In this document: piece by piece, positions 13,333-31,205 of the stretch
Position numbering within the stretch: position 1 is the stretch's first letter
How the letters are laid out: every line of letters starts with the position of its first letter
Source: a virus
Length of the DNA: 31,318 nucleotides
Virus record (IMG/VR): IMGVR_UViG_3300036985_000722
Coordinates: 1-31,318 of that record
Direction: 5' to 3' (one strand)
The notes under the pieces: model-generated
What the model saw: only the letters and a program-made list of their open reading frames with translations
Told to the model about the DNA's origin: nothing
The model's database searches: none
Made by a program: the position numbers and the translations under genes

Positions 13333-13919
13333 GCGCCAAACCAATTATAAGTTTTATACTGCATTAACAACGCTTTAACGCCTAAAGGCGATTCAATAGC
13401 CTGTAAGTCGCTAAAGTCTTCGCGGCGTTCGTAAAGCGTATTAACCAGCATCTTAATAGCTAGTTTAATGTCCTCGGGAACGGTTGTAAATCCAGCAATA
13501 TAAACCATTCTAAATTTGTAAGATTGGGAGCCGCTTATAATGTTAATCTTTGGAAAAACTCCAATATTTAGTTGGTAATTTAAAGCCGTTTCAACATTAT
13601 TTTGGTCAACGGTTACAACCTTAGTGACGTCGTTAGCTGCAACCAAAGGCCCGTAAGGGATTTGCCATTGGTAAGGGAACGAAAACGATTCTATTGTAAC
13701 AGTCTTGCGAATAATTGCCTTTCCCATATAGGCTTCGCAATGTATACGAGCCATTTTTATAAGGCTAGTTATTAAAGTGTCCTCGGCGCTGCCATCAATT
13801 CTGGCGTATTCTTTTGCCTCGGCCAATGTAACTGGCTCGGTAACTGGCGCAACGTCGGCAAATTGGATTGAATAACCCGTAAATGAGCCGTTAGTAGGTG
13901 TATATAGTAAATCACTCAT
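13329..13919 (-). CDS. Head-tail connector, gp6-like
   Basis: The product (196 aa from the ATG at 13919) binds under the portal as the first connector ring. The key segment is PVTLAEAKEYARIDG, then a long helix (EDTLITSLIKMARIHCEAYMG) that I place at about residues 45-65; this is the conserved core of gp6/YqbG-type connectors. A C-terminal helical part (EDIKLAIKMLVNTLYERRED) also fits. The ATG overlaps the glycosyltransferase stop by eight bases; an earlier TTG at 13946 is less likely. Confidence 0.83.
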   Translation of the reverse strand: MSDLLYTPTNGSFTGYSIQFADVAPVTEPVTLAEAKEYARIDGSAEDTLITSLIKMARIHCEAYMGKAIIRKTVTIESFSFPYQWQIPYGPLVAANDVTKVVTVDQNNVETALNYQLNIGVFPKINIISGSQSYKFRMVYIAGFTTVPEDIKLAIKMLVNTLYERREDFSDLQAIESPLGVKALLMQYKTYNWFGA

Positions 13920-14898
13920 TGTATATTTTTTTTGCTTTGTCAACAATAAAGGTATAAAACCTTTCCAATTCTTCTTCTTGGTATTTTAGCCGTTCCTCGG
14001 CAAGGTTGCGCATAATGTTTTGGTGGAAATCGTACAAAATTTCGTCGGTCATTAATTCCTCAATTTTTTTTGCCATTCCGTCGATGTCTTTACGGTCAAA
14101 GTAAAGACCAGCGGCCCCGAGACATTCTTTTAATCCGTCTGTCGGCGTGCATATAACTGGCAGTCTATTAATAGCAGCCTCTAAAGCAACTCGGCCATAG
14201 CTTTCGTAATCGCTTGGCATTAAAACAATATTTGTTTTCCCATAAATCAAATGAACGTCTGGCGTTTGTGGAACGTACTTTAAATTTTTATAAGTGTCGT
14301 CAATGATTTGCTCGCCGTAGCTACCTAGCACGCCCAAGAATTTAATTTTAGGCAATCGCCTTGCAAGTTCAACAAGAATATGGCCGCCCTTATTTTCGTT
14401 GCAATTAATTAACGTTACGTTTTGGCCGTGCTTACGATTATACTTTACGTCGTCCGCAAAGATTGGCGGTTTGCAAACAACTGACGCGTTAGGGTAAGGC
14501 CCGTTGCCTACGTTCTTTTGGTTTGCTTTGTTGTTATAAACAACGTGAATGTTATTAGCCTTAAATCTAACGTTTCTGTAATCGTGGTCGTTATGGCTTA
14601 AAAAAATCAATTGCTTTTTAAAGTTTCTTGCCCAATTAATTGCGACGCCAGTACTGTCCAAATGAGTAAATATTACGTCGGCATTTTGTAAGGCTAAAAA
14701 AAATTCGTTAGAATAATAACCAGTAATAAAATTTAAAAACTCAAACTTTTCGCCGTCTGGGTAAATTTGATTTTCTGGTAAAATAACTTCGATGTTGCAT
14801 CCCTTTTGATGCAAAAACTTTGCGTAATGCTGAACGGTCCACTCGGCGCCCGAGTTATGCGTTCCCGCCCACGCATGAACAAAAAAGACTACATTCAT
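13912..14898 (-). CDS. Glycosyltransferase, GT4-like (GT-B fold)
   Basis: This 328-aa enzyme should transfer a sugar from a nucleotide-sugar donor. The N-terminal half starts MNVVFFVHAWAGTHNSGAE, resembling the acceptor-side glycine loop of GT4 enzymes. The C-terminal half has the donor-site E-x7-E motif at about Glu232 to Glu240 (YESYGRVALEAA), followed by PVICTPTDGLKE. No membrane segment is seen, so it acts in the cytoplasm. It sits between capsid and connector genes, right after a terminator. That position suggests it modifies virion proteins or host surface sugars; the acceptor is unknown. Length is near the family norm. Confidence 0.85.
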   Translation of the reverse strand: MNVVFFVHAWAGTHNSGAEWTVQHYAKFLHQKGCNIEVILPENQIYPDGEKFEFLNFITGYYSNEFFLALQNADVIFTHLDSTGVAINWARNFKKQLIFLSHNDHDYRNVRFKANNIHVVYNNKANQKNVGNGPYPNASVVCKPPIFADDVKYNRKHGQNVTLINCNENKGGHILVELARRLPKIKFLGVLGSYGEQIIDDTYKNLKYVPQTPDVHLIYGKTNIVLMPSDYESYGRVALEAAINRLPVICTPTDGLKECLGAAGLYFDRKDIDGMAKKIEELMTDEILYDFHQNIMRNLAEERLKYQEEELERFYTFIVDKAKKIYNE

Positions 14899-16970: not shown

Positions 16971-16985
16971 CCAATAAATTATTGG
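16971..16985. repeat. Perfect 15-bp inverted repeat between GT25 and protease genes
   Basis: The sequence is CCAATAA-A-TTATTGG, overlapping the stop of the GT25 gene. On the minus strand a U-rich stretch follows. It may be a weak terminator or a protein-binding site; the stem is A/T-rich and short. Confidence 0.4.
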
Positions 16986-17557
16986 TTCACAAAATCGCGC
17001 ACTCTGTTTTCTGATTCTTGTAATAGGCTGGTATAATCTTTAAACCCGCCTTCAATATCGGAATCGCTTGGGCGCTGGTAACTTAGGAACGGGTAAACAA
17101 CGTAACTGTTGCCGCGTGGATGTACAATTGTCCTAAAATATTCGTCAATTGGCAAGGTTAAATCCAAGGTTGCCATCTCTTTGCATAGGCTATGCGAGTA
17201 GTAAATTGCGTGAGTTGTCCAAGCGCCGTAAGTACGGGCCAACGTCTTGTTTATTCTGTCTAGCCTTTGGTCTTTTATGTTGGCTCCCAGCATTAACATT
17301 TCCCAACCCTCTGGTAAATCCTTTATTGCGTTTTCTAAATTTGTCGCCCAACCTCGGTAAGTTGCGTCGTCTTCAAAAATTAAAACGTCGCCGTCAGCTT
17401 GCGTAAATATCTGTTTAAATGTTTGCCACAATCCAAGCCAACCCCATTCGTTTTTAATTGCTGGCACTCGCTCAAGTTTAAAATGCGGGCCTAATTCAAT
17501 TTCACACGCGCGCCATTTATCGCGGCGCGAATCCAAATTAATTACCTTGGCAATCAA
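16979..17557 (-). CDS. Glycosyltransferase, GT25-like
   Basis: This 192-aa protein matches the GT25 (LPS glycosyltransferase) pattern. It has VINLDSRRDKW at residues 5-15, a metal-binding FEDDA at 61-65, and MLMLGANI near 85. It ends with a conserved-looking YPFLSYQRPSDSDIEGG. Family members often add galactose or glucose to LPS, or to hydroxylysine in other systems. There is no membrane segment. It is encoded by an ATGA overlap after a Cys-rich protein and just before the head protease, deep in the head operon, so a virion protein or host surface glycan is the likely acceptor. The exact sugar cannot be told. Confidence 0.85.
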   Translation of the reverse strand: MIAKVINLDSRRDKWRACEIELGPHFKLERVPAIKNEWGWLGLWQTFKQIFTQADGDVLIFEDDATYRGWATNLENAIKDLPEGWEMLMLGANIKDQRLDRINKTLARTYGAWTTHAIYYSHSLCKEMATLDLTLPIDEYFRTIVHPRGNSYVVYPFLSYQRPSDSDIEGGFKDYTSLLQESENRVRDFVNQ

Positions 17558-24178: not shown

Positions 24179-24808
24179 TTAAATTAGTTTGTCTAAATTT
24201 TTATTCTCTTTAATTGATTCCAAAATAAATAGTTTCCAAATCTTATTCTTTGACTTGGCGCCAACTGTTGATTCCTCAACCCAATGCCTAGTTAATCTTA
24301 ATTCTTTTCTTACTTCTTTTTCTATTTCCTCTACGTTGTAAAGCCAAGGTTTTAAAATTCCTTTTTCTTGGAACTTGTTAAACCAGTTAACGCCCCAGTC
24401 GGCAATGTCTTTGCAATATCCAGTTTCTTTGGCTTGCTGGTAATTTTCTCGAAAAATGTTTTTACCAACCTCAAGCCAATAGGCTATTTCCTCGGGGCTT
24501 GGCTCTTTGTCTTTGTTGTTTTGGTTTTGTATCTCCATAACGATTTGGCTTTGGTGGTGCTGGTAATATTGATTAATCCAGCCGTTTACTGTCTTTTCGT
24601 TGACGTGGTAAAAATCCCCGTATTGGCCCCTAAGTCCAGCGTGCAAAATGTAATCAACTCTTTCGTCTGTCATCCAGCCAAATTTTTTAAACAAGTCGTT
24701 TAGGCATTCTATTAATTCTGTTGCGTCTTCTTTTTTGTATTCTTTAAATTGTTTTAGACCGCAAACAAATTCCATTTTTTTTAGGTGCTTAATTATTGTC
24801 TCTTTCAT
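24179..24808 (-). CDS. Replication-module protein (possible loader partner)
   Basis: The 209-aa helical protein directly follows the DUF6291-like gene and overlaps it by 20 bases. Around residues 35-80 it has KKFGWMTDERVDYILHAGL, then VNEKTVNGWINQYYQHHQ, a pattern I associate with DUF6633-like phage replication proteins. The C-terminal half is charged. Position and pattern suggest an accessory of replication initiation, perhaps contacting the host helicase; no catalytic motif is visible. Confidence 0.75.
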   Translation of the reverse strand: MKETIIKHLKKMEFVCGLKQFKEYKKEDATELIECLNDLFKKFGWMTDERVDYILHAGLRGQYGDFYHVNEKTVNGWINQYYQHHQSQIVMEIQNQNNKDKEPSPEEIAYWLEVGKNIFRENYQQAKETGYCKDIADWGVNWFNKFQEKGILKPWLYNVEEIEKEVRKELRLTRHWVEESTVGAKSKNKIWKLFILESIKENKNLDKLI

Positions 24809-25505
24809 GGTTTTTTTGGTTTTCTTTTTCTTTCATTAAGTCGTCGTAAATTTCGTCGAAAACGTTGTAAGTTTCTTTTTTTTCTGGGAGTTTAAAATTG
24901 CTTTTTAAATTATTTGACAAATAAAGATTAAACGAGTTTTCCGCTTTTGCAATTGTCATACATTCGCCTTCTTTTAATGTTGCCCATTTTTTAAAAAAAC
25001 CTTTTATTGTTTTGGTGTCGATGCTATGTACTTCGCTCATGCGGTCAAAGTACGGACGTTTTAAAGGCTTTTCTTTTTCAAAATCAATACGGACATCGTC
25101 CAAAGAAAAAAGAGCGCTCGCGCTTATTTGCTTTTTTACATTTTCATTTACATTAACATTACCATTTACATTACCATTTACATTACCAGCTAAGTTTGCT
25201 AGGCTTTGCTTAGCGTTGCTAGGGTTTGCTAGAACTTCGCTAGCATTGCTAGCTTTTGCTAGACCTCCTTTACGTCCAGCCTCGGCGCGTTGTTGTTTCT
25301 TTTCGTCCCAAACTACCAAGTCTCTTTTTAATTGCGTCTTGATTGGTAAAAAAGCAATCTTTAAAAGCTTATCGCTTTGCTCTGGGTTTTCGTCGTTGAC
25401 ATAGGCAAAAATATGCTTTATCAATTTTCCAGCGTCTTCGTCTGTTAATTCGTCAAATACCTCTTTTTGGTCGGTATAAAGGACAAAGGATTTTTTACCG
25501 TTCAT
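24789..25505 (-). CDS. DUF6291-like replication initiator candidate containing iterons
   Basis: The 238-aa product starts MNGKKSFVLYTDQKEVFDELTDEDAGK (residues 1-26), the DUF6291 pattern, with FLPIKTQLKRDLVVWDEK near 45-62 and AEAGRKGGLAKAS near 67-79. A low-complexity Ala/Ser/Asn/Leu linker and a NVNGNVNGNVN stretch (about 80-115) follow, then a helical C-terminal domain (about 130-200). The linker DNA holds seven 10-bp iterons, so the origin may lie inside this gene, as in lambda O. A TTG at 25526 would start within a terminator hairpin; the ATG at 25505 is preferred. Confidence 0.82.
   Translation of the reverse strand: MNGKKSFVLYTDQKEVFDELTDEDAGKLIKHIFAYVNDENPEQSDKLLKIAFLPIKTQLKRDLVVWDEKKQQRAEAGRKGGLAKASNASEVLANPSNAKQSLANLAGNVNGNVNGNVNVNENVKKQISASALFSLDDVRIDFEKEKPLKRPYFDRMSEVHSIDTKTIKGFFKKWATLKEGECMTIAKAENSFNLYLSNNLKSNFKLPEKKETYNVFDEIYDDLMKEKENQKNHERDNN
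25141..25188. repeat. A/T-rich 12-bp tandem repeats beside the iterons
   Basis: Units of about 12 bp (TTTACATTACCA and close variants) recur three to four times, coding NVNG repeats. The tract lies directly next to the iteron array. An A/T-rich stretch beside iterons is where many origins unwind, but in-frame repeat expansion would also explain it. Confidence 0.65.
25196..25262. repeat. Seven iterons at exact 10-bp spacing
   Basis: TTGCTAG or a one-base variant begins at 25196, 25206, 25216, 25226, 25236, 25246 and 25256. Copies 1, 3, 4, 6 and 7 are identical; copy 2 is TTGCTTAG and copy 5 is TTCGCTAG. The 10-bp period is not a multiple of three, so protein repetition cannot explain it. One turn of DNA per copy places all sites on one face of the helix. 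Best reading: a replication origin or operator inside the initiator-like gene. Confidence 0.75.
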
Positions 25506-25511
25506 AATAAA

Positions 25512-25548
25512 TAAAAAAGGCCCCAAACGTGTCGCAGTCGTCGGGGCC
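25512..25548 (-). terminator. Terminator in the leader of the replication gene
   Basis: Arms 25519-25524 and 25543-25548 form GGCCCC/GGGGCC, extendable inside by ACG/CGU, followed in the minus-strand RNA by six U. The start codon is only about seven bases further. It lies between the promoter at 25612-25639 and the gene it should serve, as an attenuator would. The apical loop contains CUGCGAC, complementary to GUCGCAG upstream in the same RNA (25586-25580). Confidence 0.75.
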
Positions 25549-30109: not shown

Positions 30110-30327
30110 TGTTCAATAAATAAATTGTCCTGTTCTAATATTTTTCTAAATTCCTTTCGGCAATAATCGTAAGCTTTATAAGTTTCGTCGGTCAATTCTT
30201 TGTATTTCATTTCTGAGCGCAAAAGTTGGTCAAATTCCCAAATCGCACTCTTATAGTTTTCGCCGTTTATTGCGGCTTGAAAATCGCTATTTTCTTCAGG
30301 TAAATCAAATTCTAAGATTGCTTTCAT
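30106..30327 (-). CDS. Hypothetical protein, 73 aa
   Basis: The acidic helical protein begins MKAILEFDLPEENSDFQAAI and has SAIWEFDQLLRSEMKYKEL near residues 27-45. I know similar short proteins in other phages (an MKAILEFDLPE start followed by a helical bundle) but no function. It is joined by ATGA overlaps on both sides, to the metallophosphoesterase and the membrane-anchored protein. Confidence 0.8.
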   Translation of the reverse strand: MKAILEFDLPEENSDFQAAINGENYKSAIWEFDQLLRSEMKYKELTDETYKAYDYCRKEFRKILEQDNLFIEQ

Positions 30328-31205
30328 AGTGGAAATTTACAACTGTCCACTAACATTTCATAATTGTCGCCTTTAGGCGTTCTAATTCTTAAATGGTCTA
30401 AGTTTAATATTCGCCCGCCAGTTGGTTTTACAGGCGCTCCGCGTTCAACGTGCCATCCACCAAAGCCGTCCTCGTATTCTTCTTTATATGCGCCAGTTAA
30501 TGCAAGGTGAATTTGCTTTTGCACTAATTCGTGGCAATGCTTCCCTGGATTATAACCTACGCAATCCCTTACATCGTTACGACTAGAGTTTTCGTGAATG
30601 TGTCCCATAACAAAGATGTCCATATTTTCGTACATTTCTAGCGCTCGAGTCAAGTTAATGGCTCCCTTAGTAACTACCCCACCCCCCCCACTACCGTGGA
30701 AATACTTTAAATTTTTTGTCATATAGGTATTGCCCTCTATATGCTTTTTTATTACAAGCCAACCTCCATAACCTCCAGTATAAACGCTAGTTTTGTTCGT
30801 GTAATTTAGCAAGTCGACAAACCTTTGCAATGGGTCGGTTTCTAAATTTTTTATAATTCCAGTCTCGTGGTTTCCGTAACCGATAACAGTTAATAAATGA
30901 GCGTAAGGCGACCACCAATCAACCGCATTCTCAATTACGGCGTCTATATAGTTTGCCTTGTTGTGTTCGGGCAATACATCCTTTTTGCTTCGCCTTGGGT
31001 CATACTTGCCTTGCATTAAACAGAAAAAATCGCCGTTTATAAAAATTGGCATTTCTTGCTCTTTGCAGTAGTCTAAATGGCGCTTTAATTTGTCGCGGTC
31101 ACATTTGGGATTATCCCAATGGATGTCAGATAATAAAGCAATTTTGCACTCCTTTTGCTCAAGGCTTATTTGATGTAAGTTTCTTGAGATTCTTTTAATT
31201 TCCAT
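30324..31205 (-). CDS. Calcineurin-like metallophosphoesterase
   Basis: The 293-aa enzyme has all the metal-binding blocks: SDIHWD with Asp27 and His29, NGDFF with Asp59, GNHE at 111-114, and MGHIHEN near residue 210. It would hydrolyse a phosphoester; phage relatives are linked to DNA repair or nucleotide or RNA processing, but the substrate cannot be read from sequence. A Gly-rich loop (HGSGGGG) is encoded by a tract with eight consecutive G, which could be slip-prone. It is followed by the 73-aa gene with an ATGA overlap and preceded after five bases by a truncated gene. Confidence 0.9.
   Translation of the reverse strand: MEIKRISRNLHQISLEQKECKIALLSDIHWDNPKCDRDKLKRHLDYCKEQEMPIFINGDFFCLMQGKYDPRRSKKDVLPEHNKANYIDAVIENAVDWWSPYAHLLTVIGYGNHETGIIKNLETDPLQRFVDLLNYTNKTSVYTGGYGGWLVIKKHIEGNTYMTKNLKYFHGSGGGGVVTKGAINLTRALEMYENMDIFVMGHIHENSSRNDVRDCVGYNPGKHCHELVQKQIHLALTGAYKEEYEDGFGGWHVERGAPVKPTGGRILNLDHLRIRTPKGDNYEMLVDSCKFPL

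Follow-up and report, generated by a model that had tools for sequence, protein, structure and literature searches.

A likely phage replication origin within a DUF6291 gene, the proposed gene of its own initiator

We find that the gene of a DUF6291 protein in an uncultured phage carries an array of DNA sites at a 10-bp spacing, and that this spacing is kept in a very wide range of phages, almost always inside the same gene of unknown function. As the gene usually sits next to replication genes, the array is most likely the place where these phages start copying their DNA, and DUF6291 is most likely the protein that starts it, although binding of the sites by DUF6291, unwinding, helicase recruitment and origin firing are inferred.

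The repeated sites in the DUF6291 gene

The DNA analyzed (the window) is a linear IMG/VR phage contig of 31,318 bp (IMGVR_UViG_3300036985_000722). The gene at 24789-25505 on the minus strand encodes a full member of PF19808 (DUF6291; E 2.5e-26, 92.1 bits against a cut-off of 27.2). The features of the locus are as follows, all on the minus strand.

24789-25505: DUF6291 gene, proposed replication initiator; the ATG at 25505 is the start conserved in relatives, as judged from the start region aligned in nine of them, whereas the list of open reading frames gives an upstream TTG at 25526
25254-25490: DUF6291 N-terminal domain (Pfam residues 13-91), proposed iteron-binding domain
25189-25262: iteron array of eight TAGCAA-type sites in gene sense, with CTAGC or a variant at 25258-25262, 25248-25252, 25239-25243, 25228-25232, 25218-25222, 25208-25213 (CTAAGC), 25198-25202 and 25189-25193 (TTAGC)
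25135-25186: A/T-rich block of 6-bp repeats (AATGTW in gene sense), proposed DNA unwinding element, encoding an Asn-Val-rich linker
24809-25134: C-terminal part of the DUF6291 protein, proposed on inference alone to contact the helicase or its loader
24179-24808: next gene, 209 aa, of unknown function
25513-25548: terminator-like hairpin (GGCCCC...GGGGCC) plus U-tract directly before the start codon, a possible attenuator of the initiator gene

A sequence-only reading had proposed seven 10-bp iterons inside this gene as a likely origin, and its coordinates and copy numbers are right. TTGCTAG occurs exactly at 25196, 25216, 25226, 25246 and 25256, and the two imperfect copies are TTGCTTAG at 25206 and TTCGCTAG at 25236. 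In the TTG register all seven start 10 bp apart, whereas in the CTAG register the steps are 9/10/11, giving a 30-bp super-period. There is an eighth, partial site (TTAGC in gene sense, 25189-25193), and the gene offsets of the eight sites are 264, 274, 283, 294, 304, 313, 324 and 333. The neighboring A/T-rich tandem repeat (25135-25184) has 20% GC against 39% for the window. To assess whether the array could arise by chance, we recoded the linker synonymously with the phage's own codon usage; five copies of any one 7-mer appeared in 0 of 100,000 trials and six CTAGC in 1 of 100,000, although this own-codon shuffle is a weak test because the local codon choice is itself the signal. Two points of the earlier reading required correction. 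The imperfect copies are not random decay, as they lie where a perfect TAGCAA would be an in-frame TAG stop, and the gene is not strictly at the head of a replication block, because ERF and Gp157 genes lie upstream on the same strand.

Nine viral contigs (L001-L009; sequences found in our searches are designated by L numbers) encode relatives with the best segments 74-85% identical, and all keep the array and the hexamer block. L001 and L002 have one additional site through a 9-bp insertion, L008 and L009 have lost two sites, and the hexamers vary by whole units. The hairpin before the start codon folds in the window, L001, L003, L006 and L008; L003 and L008 keep the stem by changes on both sides, suggesting an attenuator.

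Conservation of the 10-bp period across phages

In order to investigate whether the array is tied to the gene, we searched the viral collection with a pattern that says nothing about reading frame or gene (TAGCAA N4 TAGCAA N5 AGCAA N4 TAGCAA, fixing 23 bases). Of 119 hits, 94 lie directly behind a DUF6291 domain on the same strand, as judged with a profile of our own. Most lie in proteins with the same layout, for example KGGKQKVANASKCKQKVANVADSDSDSD. In a Pfam scan of 88 proteins (85 array-bearing ones from this search and the window, plus three phage proteins), 86 matched DUF6291. Vibrio phage D478, a phage of another bacterial phylum, has the same core at exactly 10 bp. Tandem GATTTAGCAA repeats (4-7 copies, non-coding) near the ends of isolate phage records of ~30 kb (L021, L029, L031, L040, L058, L060 and similar) also match the pattern, but their records have no DUF6291 and we took them to be unrelated simple repeats.

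We then collected genes using the N-terminal domain alone, so that the linkers were not selected. Many carry other cores, namely AACGA (L168, L193), TCGCAA (L200, elemo phages), AACAAA (L172) and AAACCCA (Vibrio phage 1.240.O, Pseudoalteromonas phage PS_L5). Against synonymous recoding with pooled codon usage, base identity at lag 10 is in excess with z 5.1 in the TAGCAA class and z 11.4 in all other classes, whereas lags 11 and 12 show nothing and lag 9 shows a weaker excess (3.4) in the TAGCAA class only. On single genes, 28 of 43 domain-found linkers pass a fold test at period 10, while at periods 8, 9, 11 and 12 about 9-12% of all 65 tested linkers do. The remaining 15 of 43, among them RAP44, BT-1011 and L194, do not reach z 1.645 for period 10.

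As controls, we scanned a permuted core at 10 bp (6 hits) and TAGCAA at 9 bp (14 hits). Two of the six permuted-core hits turned out to be DUF6291 genes with their own ATACGAA dialect, whereas none of the 9-bp hits did. We next scanned the AACGA core, predicted from relatives beforehand, at 10, 9 and 11 bp. Raw counts alone are not evidence, as the 9- and 11-bp scans gave at least 120 hits each, more than at 10 bp; only the position behind DUF6291 separates the periods, with 8 of 61 hits at 10 bp against 0 of 120 at 9 bp and 0 of 120 at 11 bp (0 of 240 together; Fisher p 1.9e-6). Altogether, period-10 arrays of three different cores lie behind DUF6291 in 104 of 186 hits, and period-9 and period-11 arrays in 0 of 254.

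Because 10 is not a multiple of 3, successive sites are read in three frames (xTA GCA AA, xxT AGC AA and TAG CAA), the third of which would be a stop. The search pattern left that base free. In 77 distinct coding arrays it is A in 76 and C in 1, whereas in the other hits it is T in 30 and A in 3. This explains the two imperfect copies in the window: 25206 has A in place of T (CTAAGCAA), and 25236 is shifted by one base into another frame.

Arrays outside the gene and the A/T-rich block

Two phage lineages carry the array outside the gene. In contig L041 it lies in a stretch without ORFs, with uninterrupted TAGCAA sites and GTAATA hexamers directly after it, whereas the DUF6291 gene of that contig, about 8 kb away, keeps only three sites and no hexamers. 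Recoding of TAG in L041 and L023 was rejected as an explanation for in-frame TAGs, since no ORF covers the array and it is thus intergenic. In contigs L022 and L076 (the same phage type) the DUF6291 linker has no array, and an intergenic array lies about 0.7 kb from the gene next to a very A/T-rich stretch. Although only two independent lineages are represented, the DNA array can leave the gene and the linker then loses it, which is the best evidence for the earlier proposal that the encoded linker is a by-product. In addition, DUF6291 genes of L043, L067 and L134 (L022/L076) have in-frame TGA codons at conserved glycine positions, and long ORFs appear only if TGA is sense, suggesting phages probably of TGA-recoded bacteria (Gracilibacteria or Absconditabacteria type) that carry the same iterons.

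These results bear on whether protein-level selection or tandem-repeat slippage could account for a low-complexity linker whose DNA repeats have no role. The linker is a decapeptide repeat in protein terms, and its N-V repeats vary in copy number by two residues. However, the recoding tests, the different amino acids with the same period, the absence of DUF6291 hits at 9 bp, where in-frame protein repeats would appear, the arrays outside genes and the arrays of the same core in phages of TGA-recoded bacteria make this explanation very unlikely.

The A/T-rich block also shows constraint. In 128 distinct genes it uses AAT for Asn in 98.6% (60% elsewhere), GAT for Asp in 99.6% (67%), GGT for Gly in 97% (34%) and AGT for Ser in 86% (22%). 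TCA and TCT are as A/T-rich as AGT, so the constraint is more than base composition. Phased direct repeats also occur in operators and the array lies within the early operon, raising the possibility that it serves autoregulation of the DUF6291 gene or operon, by DUF6291 or another phage protein. We consider an operator in place of an origin unlikely, as the array lies mid-gene and not at a promoter, promoter-like matches are at chance level there, and it is regularly followed by the A/T-rich block with biased codons; the two roles are not exclusive.

Replication context and predicted structure

The gene after DUF6291 matches a primase/helicase (PHROG 239) in 20 of 38 distinct loci and DnaB_C in 10 of 38. 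In named phages the neighbor is a primase/helicase (elemo), DnaC-like (phi19:3, BT-1011), a primase (tooticki) or a DnaB-type helicase (1.240.O). In the window we recognized no helicase or primase gene, and the phage would depend on the host's. Its 209-aa gene directly downstream of DUF6291 is conserved in that place in the close clade but matches no Pfam family; helicase or primase genes occupy this place in other phages, and it may be a helicase loader. A calcineurin-like phosphoesterase gene is annotated near DUF6291 in elemo and Harreka phages (L011, L249), and the window has a similar-looking gene at its end (30324-31205, minus strand). Two further genes, at 13912-14898 and 16979-17557 (minus strand), look like glycosyltransferases by eye and lie inside the head gene region.

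Iterons at 10-bp steps could also nucleate other nucleoprotein complexes, and ERF, RusA or other recombination genes are near in several phages, so that a partition, packaging or recombination site bound by DUF6291 or a partner is conceivable. This seems improbable, given that the nearest conserved partners are primase/helicase, DnaB and DnaC genes and that the order of initiator domain, iterons and A/T-rich block matches lambda O and SPP1 oriL. The GC-skew check suggested by the sequence-only reading was uninformative: no extreme falls at the array in the window, Harreka_1, tooticki6-1 or D478, and skew is confounded by gene direction.

An AlphaFold model predicts the N-domain as three helices (pLDDT 90.3), the third running from residue 47 to 89 and ending in the basic AGRKGG segment; the C-terminal part is helical in the model with moderate confidence. 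In the alignment the basic segment differs between dialects, with AG.KGG accompanying TAGCAA, SAE.R accompanying AACGA and GNLK accompanying TCGCAA. It is therefore a candidate for the recognition element, but it lies next to the array in the gene, so linkage could explain the association. L162-L164 and L167 are DUF6291 genes close to that of the window (N-domain about 70% identical, similar C-terminal part) but with the AACGA dialect instead of TAGCAA, a natural specificity swap. Fold searches gave no informative PDB match for the full protein or the N-domain, which does not exclude a known fold.

Comparison with known origins

No function is stated for PF19808, although some database members carry names such as replisome organizer or DnaD domain protein. 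The window protein is not a lambda O protein by sequence: a profile search up to E 0.1 reported only DUF6291, and 86 of 88 scanned proteins match DUF6291 and none is listed under Phage_rep_O. No DnaD or DnaB_2 match was reported either, only a weak match to PHROG 6451 (primosomal protein, E 0.005).

In lambdoid phages, the origin lies in the middle of the initiator gene (O), iterons are followed by an A/T-rich tract, extra iterons lengthen the protein (Stx phages gain 13 residues; PMC7466680) and a helicase-loading gene lies downstream. Ori-lambda iterons, however, are inverted repeats that bind O dimers (PMC5043065) and are longer and fewer, whereas here they are direct 10-bp sites in about 5-8 copies. 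In SPP1, oriL lies within gene 38 and has direct repeats and an A/T-rich unwinding element, and the helicase loader and a DnaB-family helicase are part of the system (PMC6316719); no sequence relation was detected, SPP1 is not known to use a 10-bp period, and it has a second origin with the same repeats. In the iteron plasmids P1, RK2 and R6K, direct repeats in phase with the DNA helix lie next to an A/T-rich region and phasing matters (PMC5043065), but the initiator there probably binds iterons of about 20 bp outside or beside the gene, whereas here the period is a single helical turn and the array is coding sequence. The present array combines direct, phased iterons with the in-gene location, at the shortest possible phased period.

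Taken together, we consider it likely that the array and the A/T-rich block form a replication origin embedded in the gene of its own initiator. In this reading, the N-terminal DUF6291 domain binds the 10-bp iterons, one copy per helical turn on one face of the DNA, the row of initiators opens the neighboring A/T-rich 6-bp repeats, and the C-terminal part recruits the replicative helicase or its loader from the phage or, as in this window, the host. With somewhat less assurance, but as more probable than not, we propose that DUF6291 defines a widespread class of phage replicator that is so far undescribed; we found no paper on DUF6291 and none describing such arrays in literature that excluded most subscription journals. 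The 10-bp spacing would be fixed by the protein assembly, while the recognized core drifts into several dialects together with the end of the DNA-binding helix; the same array is translated in all three frames with only the stop codon dodged, has left the gene in at least two lineages and persists in phages of bacteria with an altered genetic code.

This reading gives a proposed function and mechanism to a domain of unknown function found in at least several hundred viral contigs (567 confirmed in one scan), from phages of Bacteroidota, Gammaproteobacteria and, by their TGA codons, probably Gracilibacteria-like hosts. It also gives a sequence signature, a 10-bp array plus A/T hexamers behind DUF6291, from which origins of many uncultured phages could be located, and it is a clear natural case of a DNA element that dictates a protein's linker in three frames, with several iteron dialects on which initiator specificity can be studied.
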